Below, in pieces: positions 53,439 through 64,000 of a stretch of 64,000 nt of DNA; position 1 is the first letter of the stretch, and each line of letters starts with the position of its first letter. Origin of the DNA: Lachnospiraceae bacterium MC2017 (GTDB taxonomy: Bacteria > Bacillota > Clostridia > Lachnospirales > Lachnospiraceae); assembly GCA_000701625.1 (NCBI GenBank), contig JNJK01000008.1, positions 1-64,000 on the forward strand, in the 5' to 3' direction. The translations under genes were made by a program, and so were the position numbers. The notes beneath the pieces were generated by a model. It was not told where the DNA came from, searched no databases, and was given only the letters and a program-made list of their open reading frames with translations.

Positions 53439-54272
53439 ATGACTACTGACAGAAAATTTCTCTTTGTTGATCTGGATGAGACACTTCTCACCAGCGATAA
53501 ACGGATAGATGGTACTGATCTGGAAGCGATAAATGAAATGCTGGATGAGGGACACTGCTTTGCATTTGTAACCGGTCGTCCCTATCCCGACACGATATGC
53601 ATTGCCGAAAGATACCGTCTGGTCCGTGATGGCTTTTATATCGCAAGCTACAATGGATCACAGATAAATAATCCTGTTACAGGAGATGTTCTTTACGCCT
53701 CTCCTGTTTCGATCAGTGATGTCCGGATGATCTTTGAAACCGCTGCCGAAAAAAACATACACTGCCAGACATACGACAGAAATTACGTCATTGCAACCGG
53801 CGGGCAGGAAATCATTGATGCCTATCTCAAAGGAAAAGTCATGGAGCCTCTCATCGTTCCAACTATTGATGACGTGATAAATACACTCACAACACCTCCG
53901 ATGAAAGTTATCTGCATGGCTCTCAATGATCGTCCAAAGCTGCAGCGTTTTCGTGAATATATCGAACCGCTTCTCCCGTCACGATTAAATACGTTTTTCT
54001 CAAGCGACCGGATTTTGGAGATCAGCGCATCTGACTCCTCTAAAGGAACAGGTCTTAAGCGACTCTGCGAGATAACGGGCATACCTGTTTCAAACTCTAT
54101 CGGTGCCGGTGATGAAGAAAATGATCTGCCGCTCATCAAAGCTGCGGGCTTAGGTGTAGCCATGGCCAACGCGCGTGAAGAGATTAAAAAAGCCGCGGAT
54201 GTTGTCACTGAACACGACAACAACCACGGCGGAATTGCTGAGATCATTTATAAATATATTCTTCAAGTATGA
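53439..54272 (+). CDS. Cof-type HAD-superfamily hydrolase
   Basis: A 277-residue phosphatase of the HAD IIB (Cof) subfamily. The nucleophile motif is FVDLDETLL, motif II TGRP, motif III Lys in SSKGTGLKRL, and motif IV GAGDEENDLPLI. A C2B cap lies between (about 85-185). These enzymes dephosphorylate sugar phosphates or pyridoxal phosphate; the precise substrate is not assignable. It is transcribed with the PHP gene and ends 34 bases before a large palindrome. Confidence 0.9.
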   Translation: MTTDRKFLFVDLDETLLTSDKRIDGTDLEAINEMLDEGHCFAFVTGRPYPDTICIAERYRLVRDGFYIASYNGSQINNPVTGDVLYASPVSISDVRMIFETAAEKNIHCQTYDRNYVIATGGQEIIDAYLKGKVMEPLIVPTIDDVINTLTTPPMKVICMALNDRPKLQRFREYIEPLLPSRLNTFFSSDRILEISASDSSKGTGLKRLCEITGIPVSNSIGAGDEENDLPLIKAAGLGVAMANAREEIKKAADVVTEHDNNHGGIAEIIYKYILQV

Positions 54273-54306: not shown

Positions 54307-54502
54307 GTGCAGGGCTGATAAATTCTCTTGGAACAATTAGCCGGCAGCACTTAGTGAACACGTTGTCCGAATAGGTAATTTCCGCGAACTGTTTGAGACG
54401 CATAGCGTCGAGTTTCGCGGAAATTACCGTGTTTATGAGGACAATGCGTGAGCTTAGTGTCTGTCCGAGCCGTGACAAGAGAATTTCATCAGCCCTGCAC
54501 GT
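54307..54502. repeat. 196-base near-palindrome, possible MITE or structured RNA
   Basis: The outer arms GTGCAGGGCTGAT (54307-54319) and ATCAGCCCTGCAC (54490-54502) pair perfectly, and the arms continue inward with few interruptions: AAATTCTCTTG/CAAGAGAATTT, TTAGTG-type and GTTGTCC/GGACAA segments, GGTAATTTCCGCGAA/TTCGCGGAAATTACC, ending in a small GACGC-ATA-GCGTC apex. It lies between convergent genes with no ORF of its own. The structure suggests a non-autonomous mobile element or repeat-derived RNA. No transposase is nearby, and flanking target duplications are not clear. Confidence 0.75.
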
Positions 54503-54532: not shown

Positions 54533-57500
54533 TCAGTTCATGGTAACCGTAAGATTTCCTTTGTAATCACCCTTGCCTGTGAGAGTGACATTTGGATCGG
54601 CTATTACTGCATCATAATCCTTATTGTTTTTCAACGTGAAGTTCTTCTCTCCGATCGTCATGGTAGCTTTAGTTACTTTTGTCTTCTTACCATTCAGATA
54701 AACCTTTCCGTCAGTGGCTTTAGAAATATCAGCCTGTTCGATTTTAAACTCCACAGGATTCTTCTTCAATACCTTGTTCGCTGTCTTCACAGCAGACTTA
54801 TTCTCCTTTGAAGTACCTGTATTTGCTTTGAAAGAGATTACGAAACAAGCAGGTTTCTTTGACTTCGGATTATCTGAAGCATGCTTTACGTTCTTAAACT
54901 TAAAGGACGGTTTTGAGAAATCCAGGAGAGTTGTATTCAAAGTTATCACAACTCCTCCAATGCTGTAGGTGCCGTTCCCCAGATCCACAATATCCTTTGA
55001 CTTAAACTTATTTCCGGTGAAAGAGGTATTCTGGGTAAAGATCACATTAAGAGTGATATTCGCCGCAGCAAGCTCAGATCCCAGGTCGATAGAAAGATTC
55101 TGGAACACGGTACCATTTACAGTTGCGTTAATGGTTGCGTTTCCAGGTCCGTCTGTGTTATTACCCTCAGGGACTACTGCAAGAAGCAGAACCGCCTTAC
55201 CCCACGTAGTGGATGAACTGTAAACAGCTGTTATGTTAGTAATTCCTACAGCTTTCAAGCTGACAAGTCCTGTAGCATCAACAGTCGCAACAGATTCGTT
55301 ACTACTTGAGAAGTTCCAGCTTCCATTTCCTTCACCAGGTTTGGCTGCCGTTACATTGAGAGTGAAATTGCCGTCCGAAAGACTCTTTGTAAGGCTCTCA
55401 CCGTCTGCAAATGACACCTCTGCATCATCAAGGCCATCTGGATTATCGGGATTATCAGGATCTGTATCTACTACTGTAAGATGCAGAACTGCTTTTCCCC
55501 ACGTAGTGGAAGAATTGTAAATAACCGTAATGCTCGTACTTCCAACAGCTTTCAGGCTGACAAGTCCTGTATTATCAACAGTCGCAACAGATTCGTTGCT
55601 GCTGGAGAAGCTCCAGCTTCCATTTCCATCACCAGGGTTGGCTGCCGTTACATTGAGAGTGAAATTGCCGTCCGAAAGACTCTTTGTAAGGCTCTCACCG
55701 TCTGCAAATGACACCTCTGCATCATCAAGGCCATCTGGATTATCCACTTCTATCGGAAGGGTTATCTCTCTTTCGCAGATGGAATCATTAAATGAACCGT
55801 CAGGACATTTATACTCGACGATAAATATATACTTACCGTCAGGGATCGAAGACACATTCAGATCTCCCCAGAAACTATACTGTCCACCGCCATAATAGCC
55901 GCTTTCAGCGTCCAAAACCCATTGCTTTAGAAGCGTCTTTTCTCCGCCATCTGCCGGCATATACCAAACCGATACATTACCACTTGTCAAATTGCCGATG
56001 GCCAGCAAGCGCGCTTCAAGCGCGTTTTTAGATGAACCGGACATCAGATCAGTGCAGGTGAAACCTTCAGATCCAATGATCATTGACTTCCCACCGTATC
56101 CTGTATCTTCAGAGGAATTCTTGAATTTTCCGCTGTCGCAGGTATATCTGGCTTCGAAAGTATAAAGTCCGGGCTCCAGCGTCTCATTTAAGTCTTTTAA
56201 TACAGTTTCAAATGAAGTATTCAAAACTGTGCTCATATCCCAGCTCTTAAGGAGCTTCTTCTCTCCATCTATCGAGTTGTTGTAATAAACAGAAAGTGTA
56301 CCCTCATCAAGAGGAGCTGTAGGAGATTCCACCCTGACTACCAGCGAATTACTTTCTCCTGCGGAGGATGACATTACATCCGTGTGTCCCTTGGGAATGA
56401 TCCTTTTTGGTGTTATTGAAACCTCTCCCGAAGTTACATCAGATGTAAACGTCATATTGACTCGTGCCGGAAGCTCTATTTCCAGATCGTCAGTAGAAAT
56501 ATTAAAGTAGCCGTTACTGTCAGTAACAAAATCACCAAACTCTTCTCCGTTTACCTTGACATGAATTGTTTCATTCATAAGATTAGGACCAGTTGTCACG
56601 GTGCCAACATACGGATCATCAGGATCACGTTCAAGAGCTCCATTTTCCGCAGTAGTATAAATATTAGTATATGCCCGTAAACTAAGGGTGTCGCCTTCTA
56701 TAGCGGGTTCGTAAGATGTTCGATTAGAAACGGTTGCGTTTCCAAAGCATTCAAGTATTACACCCCATTTATCTATAGTCCTGTCATAGGTTCTCGTTAG
56801 CAGTACATTACCGTCAGGATCAGTAAGGGTCACACTGTAGGTTTTTATGCCCTGTTTTATGATGCCGGTAAAATTTCCTCTGTTGTAATTGCCATCATAC
56901 CCGATCACAAAATTATCTTTTTCCAGAGTAATATTTTCTCCAATACAGTTAAATGTAACGTTTGCAAGGTTAGTAGCATCTCTAGGTCCATCAAATACCA
57001 CGGTTCCGTTGCTGTAACAGTCGGATCCTGCATATACATAAAAGTACAAACGAGGACTTGCATTTCCACCGCTCCATGCTCCCCATCTCTCCATGTTGAG
57101 CAGCTTCCAGCTATATACACCTTCTCCGCCGCCTTCAAGTAGAATAGATGGCTTTGTACTATTGGCACCATCCTTCATAACCTGGTCAACCGTTCCACCG
57201 AACCAGTTTCCATTAAGAAAGTCTCCGATACTATTTTTATCATCTATATCTGCCATTACTATCTCGGGTTCAGTGTTATTTAAGAAAGCGTTTCTCATAA
57301 GAGTGTCGTTTAAAGTCGTCACATTTTCCCTGTATATGGCTCCTCCGCCGTTGCTATTAGCATTCACCATATTGCTGAAGAATCGGCTGTCATAAACCTC
57401 ATATCCCCGAGCAGTCCTGTCATAAATAGCTCCGCCCTTATCAGCAGCATTGCTATCGAAAAGACAGTCATCAATGATAATCTCTCTATTTTCATCAAGA

Positions 57501-58336
57501 ACGGCAATAGCTCCGCCTTTACCTCCGGCAGTATTACTGATAAATGAACATCCCTCTACCTCCAGCTTTCCGCTGGAATTTAAGAAGATTACGCCACCGT
57601 CACCGTCAACATGATTGTCAATAAAGGTACAGTTAATAAAGCTTACTGTATCATTCTGTATGGAATAAAAAGCTCTTTTATTTCCTTCAAAGGTACAGTT
57701 TATAAACGTGAATGAATTCTTTTTAGTTCCGAGGTCAACCCAATTGTCCACAAAAACGTCGTCAGTAAACTCATTAAAGACGGTATTCTTGAAAGTGAGA
57801 TAATGGAAAGTCTTGAAACACAAAAGGTTTGTCATGTTTTGCTGATGGGGTGTCCAGAGATTTCCGTGGATAGTATTTCCTCGACCATCTACAGTAACAT
57901 CTCCGACCCTGCTGGTAGGATTTACCAACTGGTTTTCAAAAGTGGCATTATCTACTGTAAGATCATTCTCCAGATAAACCGAATACGGCACATCTGAACC
58001 CTCAGTCGAACTCTTTACGACATTCCATATCTGCCAAAAAAGTCCGGTAACAGCCGTATCGTTATACGCCACAGCATCCGGACCCGGATCCGGCGTAGCA
58101 GCATCCACCTCCGCAGGCTCTTCACCCTCTACGAAATCTACCACATCCGCTTCACTGTCCGTAACTGCAGATTCGACATATGTCAGTTGTCCCTGGGGTG
58201 GGGATCCGTTGGCAGCGTCTGTCCCGCCGATCAGCGGATATTCCTCGGCACATACGGTAAGAGCCATGCAATATGAAAAGACATAAAAGCACAGACCGAA
58301 CCGCGTAAGCCTCTTTAAGGTCTTCCTTCTGAACAT
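54533..58336 (-). CDS. giant secreted adhesin-like protein rich in N-glycosylation sequons
   Basis: A 1267-residue exported protein. A signal peptide (1-30, cleavage near VCA-EE) is followed by an acidic linker (about 55-90), a right-handed parallel beta-helix (about 115-375) with repeats ending GGAIY or GGVIF as in polymorphic membrane and methanogen adhesin-like proteins, several Ig-like domains (about 400-865), two nearly identical Big_2-like repeats (about 867-1064) and a Lys-rich C-terminal domain. By hand count it contains about 54 N-X-S/T sequons (X not Pro), roughly three times what its composition predicts. No LPXTG, SLH or membrane anchor was found. AAGGAGG lies seven bases before the ATG. 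It is next to a glycosyltransferase and an oligosaccharyltransferase, so it is the likely main acceptor. Confidence 0.85.
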   Translation of the reverse strand: MFRRKTLKRLTRFGLCFYVFSYCMALTVCAEEYPLIGGTDAANGSPPQGQLTYVESAVTDSEADVVDFVEGEEPAEVDAATPDPGPDAVAYNDTAVTGLFWQIWNVVKSSTEGSDVPYSVYLENDLTVDNATFENQLVNPTSRVGDVTVDGRGNTIHGNLWTPHQQNMTNLLCFKTFHYLTFKNTVFNEFTDDVFVDNWVDLGTKKNSFTFINCTFEGNKRAFYSIQNDTVSFINCTFIDNHVDGDGGVIFLNSSGKLEVEGCSFISNTAGGKGGAIAVLDENREIIIDDCLFDSNAADKGGAIYDRTARGYEVYDSRFFSNMVNANSNGGGAIYRENVTTLNDTLMRNAFLNNTEPEIVMADIDDKNSIGDFLNGNWFGGTVDQVMKDGANSTKPSILLEGGGEGVYSWKLLNMERWGAWSGGNASPRLYFYVYAGSDCYSNGTVVFDGPRDATNLANVTFNCIGENITLEKDNFVIGYDGNYNRGNFTGIIKQGIKTYSVTLTDPDGNVLLTRTYDRTIDKWGVILECFGNATVSNRTSYEPAIEGDTLSLRAYTNIYTTAENGALERDPDDPYVGTVTTGPNLMNETIHVKVNGEEFGDFVTDSNGYFNISTDDLEIELPARVNMTFTSDVTSGEVSITPKRIIPKGHTDVMSSSAGESNSLVVRVESPTAPLDEGTLSVYYNNSIDGEKKLLKSWDMSTVLNTSFETVLKDLNETLEPGLYTFEARYTCDSGKFKNSSEDTGYGGKSMIIGSEGFTCTDLMSGSSKNALEARLLAIGNLTSGNVSVWYMPADGGEKTLLKQWVLDAESGYYGGGQYSFWGDLNVSSIPDGKYIFIVEYKCPDGSFNDSICEREITLPIEVDNPDGLDDAEVSFADGESLTKSLSDGNFTLNVTAANPGDGNGSWSFSSSNESVATVDNTGLVSLKAVGSTSITVIYNSSTTWGKAVLHLTVVDTDPDNPDNPDGLDDAEVSFADGESLTKSLSDGNFTLNVTAAKPGEGNGSWNFSSSNESVATVDATGLVSLKAVGITNITAVYSSSTTWGKAVLLLAVVPEGNNTDGPGNATINATVNGTVFQNLSIDLGSELAAANITLNVIFTQNTSFTGNKFKSKDIVDLGNGTYSIGGVVITLNTTLLDFSKPSFKFKNVKHASDNPKSKKPACFVISFKANTGTSKENKSAVKTANKVLKKNPVEFKIEQADISKATDGKVYLNGKKTKVTKATMTIGEKNFTLKNNKDYDAVIADPNVTLTGKGDYKGNLTVTMN
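55144..55740 (-). repeat. tandem 297-base repeat inside the adhesin gene
   Basis: Two copies with a 297-base (99-codon) period, about 55441-55740 and 55144-55440, each encoding a Big_2-like module beginning PDGLDDAEVSFADGESL and containing VSLKAVG. Long segments are identical at the DNA level (for example 55351-55440 against 55648-55737). Such identity suggests recent duplication or gene conversion and allows copy-number change by recombination. Confidence 0.85.
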
Positions 58337-58386
58337 ATTTTACCTCCTTTTGTTTTTTACTACTCCGCTTTTCTAACAAACGTTAA

Positions 58387-58426
58387 GGTGAATGACATTG
58401 CGTTTGAACTGTAACGCATATTCACC
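58387..58426. promoter_or_regulatory. dyad at the adhesin transcription start, possible operator
   Basis: Outer arms GGTGAAT (58387-58393) and ATTCACC (58420-58426) and inner arms GCGTT and AACGC (58400-58404 and 58412-58417 region) form a 40-base dyad. It lies just downstream of the probable -10 box, where a bound repressor or an RNA hairpin at the 5' end would affect expression. Confidence 0.5.
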
Positions 58427-58428
58427 CT

Positions 58429-58456
58429 TTTATATCTATCGGTCATTTTTTCTTAA
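58429..58456 (-). promoter_or_regulatory. possible promoter of the adhesin gene
   Basis: On the minus strand: TTAAGA (58451-58456), 16-base spacer, TATAAA (58429-58434). An alternative TTGATA (58458-58463) with a poor -10 is also present. It separates the adhesin from the glycosyltransferase transcript, which ends at a terminator 10 bases upstream. Confidence 0.4.
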
Positions 58457-58465
58457 TTATCAACA

Positions 58466-58494
58466 GAAAAAGAATCCGACTTTGCCGGATTCTT
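58466..58494 (-). terminator. terminator of the glycosyltransferase operon
   Basis: AAGAATCCG (58470-58478) pairs with CGGATTCTT (58486-58494). On the minus strand the 3' arm runs into GATTCTTTTTCTG. The stem overlaps the glycosyltransferase stop codon. Confidence 0.8.
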
Positions 58495-59527
58495 AACAGT
58501 TCAAGATTTTATACAATTTCTCCGCAGAGGCCTTCCAGGAATAACATGACAGAAACACATTTTTTTCCTGCTCAGCACAGGATTTAATATCAAGTTTCGT
58601 ATGATCATAGTCATAGGGATCGATAAAGGATGCAATATCACCGTAGATCTCATGCATACATGGGGTATCTGATACTATGACTGCATCTGCCCCTGAAGAC
58701 AGAGCTTCCATGGGAGGAAGTCCAAATCCTTCATAAAAAGTGGGAAAAAGAAATGCACGACAGTTTCCCATCAGAGCTTTTGCCTCGCCGTCACTTAAAT
58801 AGCCTGTCAAAATGAGATTTGAGGGTATACCGGCATTTAAGATGTTTTCGCTCCTGTGTCCCCCAATGGCAAAAGTGATACCTGGATGCTGATACGCCGC
58901 ATTTACGATCCATTTCATATTTTTATTAGGCGCAGCAGTGGCCATCCCAAAATAATAGTCACCCTTTTTAAGGCAGAGCTTATCCAGTATACCTGTGTCC
59001 GGATCTATCTCATCCATATGCTGCCAGGCGCTCCCAATAACAGAGATCCTGCTTCTGTCAATTCTATACACTCTTAAGATCTCCGATTGAGAAAACTCAG
59101 AGACAGTTATGATCCTCATTTTTGAACACATGATGACGCGGTAAATAAAACGCCAGAAAAGCATAGAAATGATATTTCTTACGGAACCCGAAAACAGCTC
59201 CGGGTTCACTTTAAGGCTTATGTCATGAAGAACAACGATCCCACGTGGCGAAAACAGAGAAACCGCATTGGTTAAAAATATCCCTACCGCTTTATGTTTC
59301 CGGATAAAAGAAGGAAGATCCGTCTGCTCCCATAAATAACCCTTAAAATGTCCATAACGGATAAGCTTTATGTTCTTTAACTCTATCTCTTTTTCATAGC
59401 TTAAAGGAACAAGAAGCACAAATTCTCCGGGGCTAACAATTTTATCAAGTTCCCGTACCATATTTAGGGCATAGCGTTCTATCCCCGTCAAGCGTCTTGT
59501 AAGAAACACTCCATCTATCACATACAT
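58493..59527 (-). CDS. GT4-like glycosyltransferase
   Basis: A 344-residue retaining glycosyltransferase with two Rossmann-like domains (GT-B). The N terminus GVFLTRRLTGIERYALNMV is the acceptor side; the C-terminal half carries GMATAAPNKNMKW and the donor motif FEGFGLPPMEALSSGADAVIVSDTPCMHEI with the E-x7-E residues. It resembles enzymes adding mannose, glucose or rhamnose to lipid-linked glycans. It has no membrane segment. It follows the oligosaccharyltransferase gene by 74 bases and probably builds the glycan that enzyme transfers. The sugar is not predictable. Confidence 0.9.
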   Translation of the reverse strand: MYVIDGVFLTRRLTGIERYALNMVRELDKIVSPGEFVLLVPLSYEKEIELKNIKLIRYGHFKGYLWEQTDLPSFIRKHKAVGIFLTNAVSLFSPRGIVVLHDISLKVNPELFSGSVRNIISMLFWRFIYRVIMCSKMRIITVSEFSQSEILRVYRIDRSRISVIGSAWQHMDEIDPDTGILDKLCLKKGDYYFGMATAAPNKNMKWIVNAAYQHPGITFAIGGHRSENILNAGIPSNLILTGYLSDGEAKALMGNCRAFLFPTFYEGFGLPPMEALSSGADAVIVSDTPCMHEIYGDIASFIDPYDYDHTKLDIKSCAEQEKNVFLSCYSWKASAEKLYKILNC

Positions 59528-59556
59528 AAAGATTTCCCTGTCCTTAAGTAAATGAT

Positions 59557-59586
59557 GTAAGGGTCAAAATTACCTTTGACCCTTAC
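59557..59586. repeat. perfect 12-base inverted repeat between the STT3-like and GT genes
   Basis: GTAAGGGTCAAA (59557-59568) and TTTGACCCTTAC (59575-59586) form a perfect stem with a 6-base loop. No T tract follows on either strand, so it is not a standard terminator; it may be an RNA processing or stability element or an operator. Confidence 0.6.
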
Positions 59587-59601
59587 TTATGACACGAATT
59601 A

Positions 59602-61869
59602 CTATTTCACTTCATAAATAGCTGCACTTCCTCCGGTTAAGTCAGACATACCGAAGTATTCCATCCCCTCTCCTCCCCGGAAGTAAAGCCTTCCGAAAAC
59701 CGAATCAAAAAGGGGCGTAGTTACCACGGTTATAAACGGGGTTTCAGTATCTTTATTCACAAATACCGTCCAGCCTTTCCCGCCTTCTGAAGACGCGTTA
59801 ATGCTCACCGCTCCATCTCCTGAATACTCCGTGGACATTCCGTTTTCCATTATTATCATCCTGTCAATACTTACAGGCTCACCGCCCTTTCCCGGGGTTT
59901 CGGTATGAGCAGTATATATCTCGTTTTTTTCCTCAATTATCAGGTCTACGGGTTTATTATCCATTGCGAAACGCCATCCTGCTTTTCCGTTTTCGCTTTT
60001 GTATTCCGCATTATCGATGACCATTGCATAATCATCTTCCGAACTAGTGTCCTCGCCGTAAAATCCGAAGTTGGCAAACCACTGAGCGATACGAACCATA
60101 TCCGGGGTGATGATCAGAAGTACATCTTCATCAGTATCCGGAAACAGAAGCTCTGCTATGCCGGCAGCTTCACCGGAAGTTATCCCTTTATCTGACAGTC
60201 TTTTTTCCGCAGCTTCTCTGTCAAGAGAAAGTAGCTCCGTCATAAGCGCAAGCGTTTCCCTGCTTTCTCCAAAGGAAGCGATCATCTTTTCCGTTGCACT
60301 GTCTCCTGCGCCGGAGAGCATCCTTATGATATTCCGGGAGAGCTTTTCATCCCCTGAGGCAAAAGCTTTTCCGATCCAGTAGATACGCATCCCGTTTTGG
60401 GATCCGCCGTCAAATATGGTTCTCCTGCCGGTTTTCTCTTCATAAAAGTAACCGTAATCCCACCAGCTGGCGATCATGGTATCGCTATCCGTGCGTGAGC
60501 GTATGTTTTCCAGCGGTTCTGCGAAATATCGGTTTACGTGCGGCTGCGAATCCCCTACTGATCTGTATGCGCCGTAAAGCGTCGGAAAAATTGCGAGAAG
60601 GATCAGCATTCCCGCATATACCTGCCAGTCCATCATCTTCCGGTCTTTCATAAGAGCACATATCTTTCCGACGAGGACACCCGCGAGGATGGCTGTCGGA
60701 ACCGCAAAAAGCATGATAAATCTCCAGCTTCTGAAAGCGAGGATAGCTGTCAGAAAATACCAGACTACAAGAAGAACATGGTCAAAGCGCCTTTCGCCCT
60801 TAAATAGACCTCTTACCAGCATAACCCACATTACAAGCGCCATGATACATGCGACCGATCCTCCGACTGCATTTATCACACCTATATTGCTTCCTGAAAG
60901 TACCTTCATCTGGAAAAGTCCGGAAAGCCCGCCCGCGATCAGAGAAGGCTTCCTCATCTCAGATACAGACACATAAGCATCCGGGAAGAGTCCGGTGCTG
61001 CCTCCTGCAAACACCGCCATGAACTGACTCGCTAAATTGAGGAAAAAATCTCTGTCCAGAATAAGGATTCCTACAACTATCAATATCAGGCTAAGGCATG
61101 GTCCGGTTAGTTTTTCCCTAAGTTCCATCTTCTCTTCCTTCACTGAGAGAATGGAATAAATAACAAGAGAGATAGCGATTATGCCTAAAAACAGGGTATA
61201 AGCATTCCAGGATATGATAAGGATCAGAAAAGATATAAAGAACAATATTGAATATATGATCCTTTTCTTTTTTTCACGGGATTCCGCAAGAAGAATGGCA
61301 AAGCAGAAAAAAAACGCACAAGCCCATGAAAGCACGGTATCTGTATCGTAGAATCCCGGAACTGTATGGAGAAAGTATCCGTAATTCAATACCGATAGCA
61401 CCCCTGCTATTACCGCAGCTATCATTCCCTGCATCCGGTAGCCTATAATAAATACAGGCAGTGCCACAAGAACTGATAAAAAGGTTCCCTGCCAGTAAAC
61501 AGTCTTTTCAAGTGATATATCCTTTATGAAAGACAATATCTTTGTGGAAAAAACAGCTATATAAGCCATGAGTGGGCTGTAGTCTGCGGCACTCCTCCCC
61601 AAAGGAGCGTAGCTTAAGCTGTCCCAGGGTTCCCCGTCCTTAAGTGTCTCTCCCGCATGTCCGAAATTCTGTATATCCCGGGTCATCCTTAAATGGTAAT
61701 AGGAATCCATCTCGGTTAGGTAAGGCACGCCGGTCTCCTGATCGATATAATCATCACCAAGACGTGAAATGACAGTATTCCCGGCCATGATCCTTAAAAA
61801 TAGCCCAAGAAGGATGATAAGGAGCACGGCAACAACAGGGATCAGTTTTTTTACTCCCGCTTTATTCAT
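59602..61869 (-). CDS. STT3/AglB/PglB-type oligosaccharyltransferase
   Basis: A 755-residue membrane enzyme with the architecture of the catalytic subunit of N-linked protein glycosylation: a 5' membrane domain (11-13 segments, about 10-435) and an extracytoplasmic C-terminal domain. The first acidic metal/catalytic site reads EMDSYYHLR (53-61), the second FYDTDTV (173-179), a TIXE-like SVSEMRKP (301-308), the conserved Arg in WRFIML (382-387), and the WWDYG sequon-binding motif at 469-473. These combined are diagnostic of the GT66 family. The start overlaps the DUF2304 stop by eight bases. It should transfer a lipid-linked glycan to Asn in N-X-S/T of exported proteins, probably the sequon-rich adhesin encoded two genes downstream. 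Confidence 0.93.
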   Translation of the reverse strand: MNKAGVKKLIPVVAVLLIILLGLFLRIMAGNTVISRLGDDYIDQETGVPYLTEMDSYYHLRMTRDIQNFGHAGETLKDGEPWDSLSYAPLGRSAADYSPLMAYIAVFSTKILSFIKDISLEKTVYWQGTFLSVLVALPVFIIGYRMQGMIAAVIAGVLSVLNYGYFLHTVPGFYDTDTVLSWACAFFFCFAILLAESREKKKRIIYSILFFISFLILIISWNAYTLFLGIIAISLVIYSILSVKEEKMELREKLTGPCLSLILIVVGILILDRDFFLNLASQFMAVFAGGSTGLFPDAYVSVSEMRKPSLIAGGLSGLFQMKVLSGSNIGVINAVGGSVACIMALVMWVMLVRGLFKGERRFDHVLLVVWYFLTAILAFRSWRFIMLFAVPTAILAGVLVGKICALMKDRKMMDWQVYAGMLILLAIFPTLYGAYRSVGDSQPHVNRYFAEPLENIRSRTDSDTMIASWWDYGYFYEEKTGRRTIFDGGSQNGMRIYWIGKAFASGDEKLSRNIIRMLSGAGDSATEKMIASFGESRETLALMTELLSLDREAAEKRLSDKGITSGEAAGIAELLFPDTDEDVLLIITPDMVRIAQWFANFGFYGEDTSSEDDYAMVIDNAEYKSENGKAGWRFAMDNKPVDLIIEEKNEIYTAHTETPGKGGEPVSIDRMIIMENGMSTEYSGDGAVSINASSEGGKGWTVFVNKDTETPFITVVTTPLFDSVFGRLYFRGGEGMEYFGMSDLTGGSAAIYEVK

Positions 61870-62221
61870 CTTTTTCCCCCTTTTCTTTTTTCTCCATTGC
61901 GTCCCTAAGGGCTTCCTCCCCTACAAATCTCTTAAACCTGTCTTCCAGACTGGAAAAACGCAGTGATTGTATAAATGAATGCCCTAAAAGAAAAAAGATT
62001 ATTATCAGAAAAACCATATTAACCGGAGACTGTATCTTTATAAGCCCCGCAAGAGCAATTGGAAGTCCGGGAAAGATACTTATGACCACAAAAAGCGTAG
62101 AAAGAAGTATCCAGAATGTTGTGTCATAAAGCTGGACTTGAGATTTACGAATCCTCCTTACAACAAAAACAAAGCTAAATAACGATGAAATAAACAGCAA
62201 TAACCGTAAACTTATAGGCAT
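61862..62221 (-). CDS. DUF2304 membrane protein
   Basis: A 119-residue membrane protein with three hydrophobic segments (about 5-20, 34-57 and 64-85) and a basic/acidic C-terminal coil (EDRFKRFVGEEALRDAMEKKE). DUF2304 genes commonly pair with polyprenyl-phosphate GT2 genes. ATG 62221 is chosen because AAAGGA lies eight bases upstream; earlier starts overlap the GT2 stop. It overlaps the oligosaccharyltransferase start by eight bases, so the two are translationally coupled. Likely helps the GT2 or a lipid-linked sugar reach the membrane, by inference. Confidence 0.82.
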   Translation of the reverse strand: MPISLRLLLFISSLFSFVFVVRRIRKSQVQLYDTTFWILLSTLFVVISIFPGLPIALAGLIKIQSPVNMVFLIIIFFLLGHSFIQSLRFSSLEDRFKRFVGEEALRDAMEKKEKGEKDE

Positions 62222-62235
62222 GTCTTTCATCCTTT

Positions 62236-62922
62236 CTATTTTCTGATTTTCTGCAGCAAGAGAATTGAAGTGCACATCCTGAACATATAGCGTACAGATT
62301 CGGTAATATCCAGATAACTCTTTCCTCCCATCCTCTCATTCATGATCACACCGACTTCGGAAACGGTAATCCCACGGCTTATAAGAAAAGAGAGCGTATC
62401 GGGTTCCGGAGAGTAATGTGAAGAAGCTGTATATAGTTTCATAACTTTTTCATCATAGATTCTCATCCCGGAAGTTGGATCCTTTATCCTTCCTCCGCTT
62501 ACTATACGTATACAAAGGGATATAACAGCTCCTCCCAGACCTCTTGCTGAAAACTCCCTCTTTCCATCAACATATCTGGAACCAATGACAATATCATAAC
62601 TGCCGCCCACAGCCTTTTCATAAAGCCTGCATACCGCTTTGGCATCATGCTGCCCATCCGCGTCGAACTGCATGGCATATCCGTATCCATGCAAAAGCGC
62701 ATACTTCATACCTGTCCTTATCGCTTCGGATAGTCCCAGGTTTACCTGATGTCTTACGACGGGTACCTTCATCTCACGGCAGATCATTCCTGTCCTGTCA
62801 GCTGATCCATCATCCACAACGAGTATGGAAGCCCCTTCCGCAGATTCCCTTAAAGAGTGGATCACTTTTCCGATATTCTCTTCTTCATTATAAGCAGGTA
62901 TGATTATCAGCAGATTGTCCAT
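62236..62922 (-). CDS. GT2 polyprenyl-phosphate glycosyltransferase (DPM1-like)
   Basis: A 228-residue inverting GT-A glycosyltransferase. VIIPAYNEEENIGKVI, VVDDGSADRT, the metal-binding QFDADGQHD and GSRYVDG match dolichol-phosphate-mannose synthases and bacterial polyprenyl-phosphate sugar synthases. No C-terminal membrane anchor is present, fitting the separate DUF2304 partner. It would load a single sugar onto a polyprenyl phosphate for use on the outer face of the membrane. It begins three bases after the flippase gene ends. Confidence 0.9.
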   Translation of the reverse strand: MDNLLIIIPAYNEEENIGKVIHSLRESAEGASILVVDDGSADRTGMICREMKVPVVRHQVNLGLSEAIRTGMKYALLHGYGYAMQFDADGQHDAKAVCRLYEKAVGGSYDIVIGSRYVDGKREFSARGLGGAVISLCIRIVSGGRIKDPTSGMRIYDEKVMKLYTASSHYSPEPDTLSFLISRGITVSEVGVIMNERMGGKSYLDITESVRYMFRMCTSILLLQKIRK

Positions 62923-62925
62923 GGA

Positions 62926-64000
62926 TTACCTCAGACGCTTTTTTATCATCATGTCACAACGGAAATACCAGAAAGCATATACCAGAACACTGGCAACCGC
63001 TATGGGTTTCAGATCTTTCCATATGAGATATGCAGCAGTGTCCGACAGAACAGCCAGAATACAGGCGGACAGATTACATCTAAAATACTCTTTTTCCATA
63101 TCCAAAGCCTTCATAGTATTAGCACAAGCTAAACCCTGAAGGGTTCTGAAAAAAAGAGTTACCCACAATATCCCAAGAAAAGAAATACTTTCCATATATC
63201 CCGGCATAAAAATCTTTATCGCTACCGGGCATAGCATAAAAAATGCCGACATTATAGCAGACATGATAAGAGAAATACGTTTGAGACTTAAGTAACGCAT
63301 CTCCATGTCCTTTTCCTCCTGACGCTTCAGATAAGGAAATATCACGGCATTTGCAGCATTTATAACTGTAAATGCAGTAACAACGATATATACTGCAAAA
63401 GAATACTGGGAAAACTGTTTTGAATCAAAAAATGCACGGGCAAAAATACTGTCGGCTCCGAAGATAAGGAGAGAAAGCTGTTCTCCAAACAGCACAGGAC
63501 ACCCCCGGCGAATTATTTCAATGATATCTGCCTTTGCGATGTTCATTTTTTCTGCAGATCCAAAGACAATGGCAGAGTTAAAAACTATATAGGCTGTAAG
63601 CACCAATATATTCATCAGGGTAATGAACAAAAGGAATTCCAGCCATCCAACGCTGTTTCGAATGATCATCAGCGAAAATCCAATGATCAGTGCCACCCTA
63701 TAAATGATCTGCAATACCGAATCCAGCCGGAATCTTCCGGTAAATACGGTTATCGCCGCAAGATAACATCTAAGGTTTTCTATAAAAGCATTTACTATAA
63801 CGAAAAATAAAGGGGTGATACGGCCAGAGCACGCAGGTATACATATAAGGATCAGAACCGCAGTAAATAAAAGCTCCATAACGGCAAGAAACCTGAAATA
63901 TAACCTGAATCTCCCTGCCGGAAGCGCATTAAAGTCAAGCTCTCCGTATTTAAGCTGTATTCCCTGCACAAAGCCAATGTGCAGAAGCCCCGAAAATGCA
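62926..64000 (-). CDS. lipid-linked oligosaccharide flippase (Wzx-like), 5' end beyond window
   Basis: Partial. The frame stays open to base 64000 (358 codons) and reads AFSGLLHIGFVQG before an internal GTG, the pattern of Wzx/RfbX-type polysaccharide flippases (YGxLHFGFxDG), so the real start lies outside the window. About nine hydrophobic segments remain, with the MATE/Wzx layout. It would move undecaprenyl-linked glycans to the outer face, the step required before an STT3-type enzyme can act. It is the first gene of the group seen here. Confidence 0.85.
   Translation of the reverse strand, partial: AFSGLLHIGFVQGIQLKYGELDFNALPAGRFRLYFRFLAVMELLFTAVLILICIPACSGRITPLFFVIVNAFIENLRCYLAAITVFTGRFRLDSVLQIIYRVALIIGFSLMIIRNSVGWLEFLLFITLMNILVLTAYIVFNSAIVFGSAEKMNIAKADIIEIIRRGCPVLFGEQLSLLIFGADSIFARAFFDSKQFSQYSFAVYIVVTAFTVINAANAVIFPYLKRQEEKDMEMRYLSLKRISLIMSAIMSAFFMLCPVAIKIFMPGYMESISFLGILWVTLFFRTLQGLACANTMKALDMEKEYFRCNLSACILAVLSDTAAYLIWKDLKPIAVASVLVYAFWYFRCDMMIKKRLR

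Follow-up and report, generated by a model that had tools for sequence, protein, structure and literature searches.

The stretch of DNA analyzed here (the window) comprises the first 64,000 nucleotides of contig JNJK01000008.1 of Lachnospiraceae bacterium MC2017, and its right end carries a cassette of seven genes. The cassette covers about 11 kb on the minus strand: positions 54533-64000 of the window plus one gene that runs out to contig position 65294. In order of transcription, it encodes a GT4-type glycosyltransferase, a 409-amino-acid (aa) membrane protein, a GT2 glycosyltransferase, a DUF2304 protein, an STT3-type oligosaccharyltransferase, a second GT4 enzyme, and a giant exported protein, here called the acceptor. 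As judged from sequence, the cassette very probably specifies an N-glycosylation system of the oligosaccharyltransferase type that is reserved for one surface protein or a few. The genes named in an original prediction made from the letters alone are open reading frames (ORFs) where it had placed them, on the minus strand, with Pfam matches to STT3, DUF2304, Glycos_transf_2, and Glycos_transf_1. The genes and the main parts of the acceptor are as follows:

Contig 64155-65294 (beyond the window), minus strand: GT4-type glycosyltransferase, first gene of the cassette
62926-64155 (window part 62926..64000), minus strand: candidate flippase, 409 aa, assigned by position and hydropathy
62236..62922, minus strand: GT2, probable polyprenyl-phosphate sugar synthase (Pfam Glycos_transf_2, 1.5e-24)
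61862..62275, minus strand: small membrane protein of the DUF2304 family, which probably partners the GT2 (Pfam DUF2304, 5.2e-22; about three membrane spans)
59602..61869, minus strand: STT3-type oligosaccharyltransferase, 755 aa (Pfam STT3, 6.4e-36; STT3-PglB_core, 3.3e-9)
58493..59527, minus strand: GT4-type glycosyltransferase, 344 aa (Pfam Glycos_transf_1, 6e-13)
54533..58336, minus strand: acceptor, a giant exported protein of 1267 aa with 54 sequons (Pfam Big_2 and Chlam_PMP; sequon count)
58235..58336, minus strand: acceptor signal peptide, 34 residues (50-85% identity to 13 others)
57107..58156, minus strand: acceptor residues 61-410, beta-helix-like (Chlam_PMP match; 11 sequons versus 4.8; limits set by us)
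55172..55726, minus strand: acceptor residues 871-1055, two Big_2 domains (Pfam Big_2, two stretches; 11 sequons versus 3.8)
54536..55075, minus strand: acceptor residues 1088-1267, C-terminal module, also in proteins of STT3-less relatives

An STT3-family enzyme with conserved acidic residues

The STT3 protein scored 125.2 bits against PF02516 (cut-off 24.5) and 37.8 bits against PF21436 (cut-off 23), and the cassette gene is the single STT3 match in the whole genome. When 12 sequences of the genus and family were combined in a profile, it matched the solved structures of human STT3A (4.7e-27), PglB (1.8e-23), the chain 6c26, which bears the name STT3 (1.1e-15), and an archaeal-type oligosaccharyltransferase (3waj; 3.4e-11). 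A larger profile of 46 rows, which takes in a few archaeal and proteobacterial rows, matched PglB (5ogl) over its full length (1.1e-45), and the EL1 Asp, DTD, and WWDYG of the window enzyme align with the same residues of PglB. These matches place the enzyme in the GT66/STT3 family, as the original prediction had proposed.

The catalytic acidic residues, whose absence would have counted against that proposal, are also present: D55, D175, D177, E304, and W469-W470-D471-x-G473 are invariant across 46 aligned homologues. The conserved set takes in the EL1 Asp, DxD, and WWDYG motifs, and the glutamate of SVSE/TIXE is that of EL5. E304 sits in an SVSE motif, which the STT3A chain has too; since HMMER left the two unaligned, their equivalence is by motif.

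The enzyme did not reach the NCBIfam score of the PglB equivalog (50 versus 1300 bits) or the cut-off of the archaeal AglB-type STT3 subfamily (66.5 versus 450 bits). A rapidly built tree of 74 STT3 proteins, with three archaeal rows only, one support measure, and long-branch warnings, placed it within a 25-row Bacillota clade (SH-aLRT 100). One earlier study puts the few bacterial sequences available to it inside euryarchaeal AglB (PMC4973528). Two STT3 genes, L096 and L109 (L and G numbers are our labels for loci or their proteins and for genomes), come from assemblies labelled Saccharibacteria and Tenericutes and group together within the clostridial rows of the tree, which would reflect mislabelled bins or transfer.

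Sequons are concentrated in the acceptor

The acceptor contains 54 sequons (N-[^P]-[ST]) in 1267 aa, compared with a mean of 19.1 in 5000 shuffles that preserve its composition (standard deviation 3.8, highest 37), which bears out the earlier description of a protein packed with sequons. Pairs of Asn and Ser/Thr number 55 at +2 and 14-25 at the other spacings from 1 to 6 and in reversed order. All four mature regions are enriched (z scores of 3.2, 5.8, 4.4, and 5.0). When 372 ORFs of 150 aa or longer from this one genome are compared (those of the window and of L003, L033-L052, and L185-L190), the acceptor has a z score of 9.9 and the runner-up 3.3. Fifty-six exported-like ORFs sampled from this genome, chosen by a crude rule that the acceptor itself escaped, hold 294 sequons versus 281.4 expected; same-genome proteins matching the Big_2 region of the acceptor have z scores from -0.7 to 0.9. 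Since the other sampled exported-like ORFs show no excess, the excess belongs to the acceptor, as far as sampled.

The C-terminal module allows a comparison with relatives. Five acceptor copies hold 31 sequons versus 12.4 expected, and ten copies from ten STT3-less genomes of the same genus hold 22 versus 26.9. The profile that found them was built from those five acceptor modules. L131 and L132 were dropped because they duplicate L071 and L182, as were L137 and L140, which duplicate L196 and L195.

Elsewhere on the contig, positions 72442-73515 (L003 2442-3515) encode an exported-like 357-aa protein with 11 sequons versus about 4.4-4.7 (z 3.3-3.4). It is the second most sequon-enriched exported-like ORF sampled, and is borderline.

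A private signal peptide at STT3 loci

Proteins at other STT3 loci begin with a close relative of the acceptor's 34-residue signal (50-85% identity). By BLASTP at 1e-3, the mature parts of ten signal-bearing proteins fall into about four groups (the window protein, L071, and L069; L060 and L062; L181, L218, and L073; L065 and L068), with two weak links of about 3e-4 between groups (L071-L218 and L069-L073). The Pfam names vary across the groups (Big_2/Chlam_PMP, none, Big_3_5, Flg_new).

Of the 48 genomes in the genus, 4 have a strong match to a profile of the 34 residues (E of 3.7e-15 or better). These are four of the five STT3-positive genomes and none of the 43 STT3-negative ones; one weak match (E 0.004) was found among these 43. 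Across the 397 genomes of the family, strong matches (E of 1.8e-11 or better) occur in G000, G099, and G206, all STT3-positive, while five of the eight genomes with STT3 above the cut-off lack one; 11 further matches were weak (E 0.0018-0.01). In a second genus, the same three of four genomes carry both signal and STT3. The hypergeometric P for co-occurrence, uncorrected for kinship, is 2.6e-5 in the genus and 5.4e-6 in the family. Most of the proteins behind the profile come from STT3 loci, which accounts in part for the presence of the signal at such loci but not for its absence from other genomes or for the unlinked matches.

Two unlinked proteins were flagged by the signal profile first, with sequon counts taken afterwards. 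The one in G099 (C31, L181; mature part 922 aa) has 27 sequons versus 10.0 (z 6.1), and the one in G836 (C72, L218; mature part 438 aa) has 10 versus 3.3 (z 4.0). They are related to each other, and neither has a BLASTP match to the window acceptor. A third, also in G836 (C32), is cut by the contig end and has 1 sequon in 92 aa versus 0.2.

Over 21 signal-bearing proteins, the mature parts contain 507 sequons versus 196.7, and 14 have z scores of at least 4. The other seven are the fragments L064 (3.3), L058 (3.2), L217 (2.3), and L067 (0.3), together with L065 (3.8), L069 (3.7), and L073 (1.4). As L073 is the G206 protein, G206 supports co-occurrence but hardly enrichment. This count omits second contig copies (L028, L021, and L022) and the fragments L061 (54 aa) and L056/L183 (31 aa), and includes both of the near-identical L057 and L060.

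Six of the 1394 other ORFs in the fetched loci reach a z score of 4. Four (L090, L091, L098, and L100) lie beside more distant STT3 genes, L128 is itself an archaeal STT3, and L107 is a short fragment; L099, nearly identical to L098, likewise reaches 4. The proteins L090, L091, L098, L099, and L100 look exported and sequon-rich and stand near distant clostridial STT3 genes without the private signal. Some other STT3 clades may thus be paired with sequon-rich surface proteins that lack this signal, and such pairings may have more than one origin.

Sequon make-up was pooled over 15 of the 21 signal-bearing proteins with tandem arrays collapsed; because the proteins are related, the pooled sites are not independent. 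Asn and Ser/Thr pairs number 429 at +2 and 105-195 at the other spacings and in reversed order. NXT occurs 279 times (82.5 expected), NXS 146 times (77.8), and NXC once (13.0). Pro at +3 is seen 4 times versus 15.7, Asp plus Glu at -2 is seen 36 times versus 56.0 over 425 sites, and Phe at -2 is seen 50 times versus 16.6. The Phe recalls the 'enhanced aromatic sequon', and part of its excess may come from beta-helix repeats. Some linkers are almost wholly sequons, such as (NNTG)n in a G041 protein and (IPDNGT)n in a G099 protein. This make-up fits selection by an oligosaccharyltransferase without the acidic rule of Campylobacter.

Occurrence of the cassette and its gain or loss

Five of the 48 genomes sampled from the genus have an STT3 match above the Pfam cut-off, as do 8 of the 397 from the family and 2 of the 398 from the phylum, where the second match is marginal (25.5 bits). 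Among the top-scoring 80 of 124 matches, which represent 77 loci, most relatives that carry a name are assemblies of Lachnospiraceae or Clostridia, and many of their titles point to ruminant sources; isolates include Lachnospiraceae AD3010 and [Clostridium] aminophilum. The best reading is that this is a dedicated-substrate system of mostly Lachnospiraceae, often from ruminants.

The association of acceptor and transferase in the original prediction extends to related loci. In the closest STT3 group (L053-L078), 17 of 26 loci contain a signal-bearing ORF (L054-L065, L067, L068, L069, L071, and L073), several of them contig-end fragments, and in nine it is sequon-rich (z of at least 4). The genomes of two signal-less loci, L053 (G009) and L070 (G836), carry a signal-bearing protein on another contig. 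L072 (same genome as L056) and L074 are cut inside STT3, L066 has no signal-bearing ORF, and L075-L078 form a subclade without the signal, to which [Clostridium] aminophilum DSM 10710 (L077) belongs. G041 has three STT3 genes of different subgroups (L022, L021, and L023), two of them beside signal-bearing proteins, and may run two or three such systems.

Two genes mark the edges of the cassette:

53439..54272, plus strand: HAD-type hydrolase, left flank, outside the cassette
Contig 65329-65982 (beyond the window): HAD-type phosphatase, right flank

In the STT3-less G001, G047, and G030, these two flanks adjoin, 104, 280, and 75 bp apart rather than 11 kb as here. Identities to the phosphatase and hydrolase of the window strain are 97 and 95% in G001, 97 and 95% in G047, and 86 and 80% in G030. 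Thus, at this site, the machinery and the substrate gene came or went as a block. The site is probably not fixed, because in the draft genomes of G009, G013, and G041 no STT3 gene shares a contig with the closest counterpart of the hydrolase (50-51% identity).

Putative glycan donor genes and a candidate flippase

The best NCBIfam match of the GT2 is polyprenyl-phospho-GalNAc synthase PpgS (1.4e-26), with AglJ further off (1.2e-16). Mycobacterial Rv3632 is a DUF2304 protein. It neighbors PpgS and, in one paper, is suggested to direct and stabilize it (PMC6487176). From these likenesses, the GT2 and DUF2304 proteins would charge polyprenyl monophosphate.

The 409-aa membrane protein is a candidate flippase by position and hydropathy. 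Its slot is occupied by Wzx in sister loci (PF01943 in L028), and it has 12 to 13 predicted spans at lenient and 6 to 7 at stricter thresholds. A kinship with Wzx was not supported (hhalign probability 0.7%, no family match). Among the cassette genes, we recognized no PglC-like initiator and no dedicated export or accessory Sec genes.

Proposed pathway and alternative explanations

In the pathway that we propose, the GT2 with DUF2304 would load polyprenyl phosphate with the first sugar, and the two GT4 enzymes would lengthen the glycan. The 409-aa protein, or Wzx in sister loci, would flip it. STT3 would then move it, outside the cell, onto N-X-S/T sites of the acceptor, a step supported by catalytic anatomy and sequon selection rather than chemistry. 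The private signal, whose association with STT3 is observed, may bring the client to the enzyme at export. The surface adhesin that results would be densely N-glycosylated, and machinery and substrate would be gained or lost as one cassette, as seen at one site.

Several observations weigh against a dedicated N-glycosylation system, which is a prediction from sequence. The GT2 falls under all NCBIfam cut-offs, those of PpgS and AglJ included (60.9 versus 325 bits for the AglJ equivalog). The 409-aa protein, called a flippase in the original prediction, matches nothing in Pfam or NCBIfam and does not align with the Wzx of sister loci; we therefore keep it as a candidate. Two signal-bearing proteins, L073 and the fragment L067, are hardly enriched in sequons. 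The STT3 genes of G003 and [Clostridium] aminophilum, and the third copy (by position) in G041, have no signal-bearing neighbor, and G003, whose STT3 is diverged, has no signal-bearing protein. NP[ST] was seen 4 times versus about 6 expected (hand arithmetic), too rare for a test of depletion. Finally, site-by-site conservation was rejected as proof of sequon use: in one acceptor family the sequon Asn is kept in 512 of 1046 pairings versus 486 of 1209 for other Asn, but in the other it is kept in 83 of 248 versus 141 of 385. Because positional conservation is present in one family only, the argument rests on density and not on positions.

Four other explanations bear on the same data. STT3 might modify many exported proteins, the linked one being merely its densest client. 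In Campylobacter, at least 80 proteins are modified (PMC9561416); a general system need not raise counts everywhere, and the exported-like ORF near the cassette (contig 72442-73515; 11 versus about 4.7, z 3.3) fits one. We nevertheless consider this unlikely, given that the 56 exported-like ORFs and the Big_2-region relatives lack an excess and that the excess follows the private signal in other genomes. It is very improbable that STT3 is instead a GT-C enzyme acting on a wall polymer or in O-glycosylation, with the giant protein an unrelated neighbor. STT3 activity here is a prediction, and the GT2 PpgS with its neighbor Rv3632 also serves mycobacterial arabinogalactan (PMC6487176). However, such an enzyme would leave unexplained the strict +2 excess with T over S and almost no Cys, the co-occurrence of signal and STT3, and the WWDYG and SVSE catalytic motifs, which are specific to protein transfer. 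The least probable explanation, which we regard as close to negligible, is that beta-helix or Ig repeats rich in Asn generate the sequon excess incidentally, with no link to glycosylation. A PMP-like protein of an STT3-less genome (L135) does reach z 2.8 (15 versus 8.0), but the shuffles keep composition, the four mature regions are each enriched, the C-terminal modules of STT3-less genomes are not, and several dissimilar mature families share the excess.

The fourth explanation concerns the signal peptide, whose role could be to name the clients of STT3, such that dissimilar domains are coated on acquiring it and ordinary exported proteins are spared; we put this at a little under an even chance. 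The shared signal could instead mark a special route of export, or stem from gene starts exchanged recently, without itself selecting clients, which we hold to be nearly an even prospect. Conserved signals mark special export in serine-rich repeat adhesins, and the proteins at the distant loci (L090, L091, L098, L099, and L100) are sequon-rich with ordinary-looking signals. On the other side, all 43 STT3-less members of the genus lack a strong signal match, the signal predicted sequon enrichment in unlinked proteins, and the cassette contains no recognized export gene. Across these alternatives, a dedicated N-glycosylation system remains the reading that we favor.

Neighboring features

The giant acceptor gene is preceded by a feature found in a sequence scan:

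58470..58494, minus strand: terminator-like hairpin in the interval between GT4 and acceptor (11 pairs, then a T run)

Because this hairpin (58494-58470) and a Shine-Dalgarno site of its own (AAAGGAGG) precede the giant gene, it is probably transcribed separately from the machinery genes. Directly past the acceptor gene, at 54307-54500, lies a palindromic repeat of about 194 bp with 23 more dispersed copies in the genome at 130 bits or more; it resembles a small non-autonomous element or repeat family. The sugar-activation genes that the original prediction thought might lie upstream did not appear directly upstream: beyond 64000 lie the first GT4 of the cassette, then the HAD-type phosphatase and genes that read as a polyphosphate kinase and an exopolyphosphatase-like protein.

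Implications and comparison with known systems

In the open-access literature that we searched, including passages of PMC9561416, PMC10450907, PMC6487176, PMC12335128, and PMC4973528, we found no description of STT3-type N-glycosylation in Lachnospiraceae or other Clostridia. If our reading is correct, Clostridia possess N-glycosylation of the oligosaccharyltransferase type, and its relaxed N-X-S/T specificity would be of value to glyco-engineering. If the signal peptide is a client tag, it would be a new route of substrate choice for such an enzyme. The strain with the cassette (G000) and its relatives without it (G001, G030, and G047) allow asking what N-glycans do for a surface protein. The results also caution against taking GT66 counts in rumen metagenomes, such as those reported in PMC12335128, as archaeal only.

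Like the Campylobacter Pgl system, the cassette has an STT3/GT66 enzyme with a full-length profile match to PglB (5ogl) and presumed en bloc transfer outside the membrane. The Campylobacter sequon follows the rule D/E-X-N-X-S/T (PMC9561416), whereas here there is no acidic preference at -2 (Asp plus Glu below expectation). Also unlike Campylobacter, the cassette has no PglC-like initiator, and its one-enzyme, few-clients layout, with one linked client compared with some 80, contrasts with that general system.

With the archaeal Agl system (AglB and AglJ), it shares plain N-X-S/T sequons and a GT2 that is distantly AglJ-like. SVSE-type motifs occur in archaeal AglB. It differs in that its STT3 is far under the archaeal cut-off, its host is bacterial, and its client is a PMP/Ig-like adhesin rather than an S-layer protein.

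Serine-rich repeat glycoproteins resemble the acceptor in that a dedicated adhesin with a special signal peptide is encoded beside its own glycosylation genes. Those adhesins are O-glycosylated in the cytoplasm and exported by a second Sec system, while here accessory Sec genes were unrecognized in the cassette and the N-transferase is predicted to act outside the cytoplasm. The mycobacterial PpgS/Rv3632 pair is a counterpart of the donor genes, with a PpgS-like GT2 beside a small membrane protein, as Rv3631 lies beside Rv3632 (PMC6487176). In mycobacteria the sugar goes to arabinogalactan, whereas here an STT3 enzyme and a sequon-rich protein follow.

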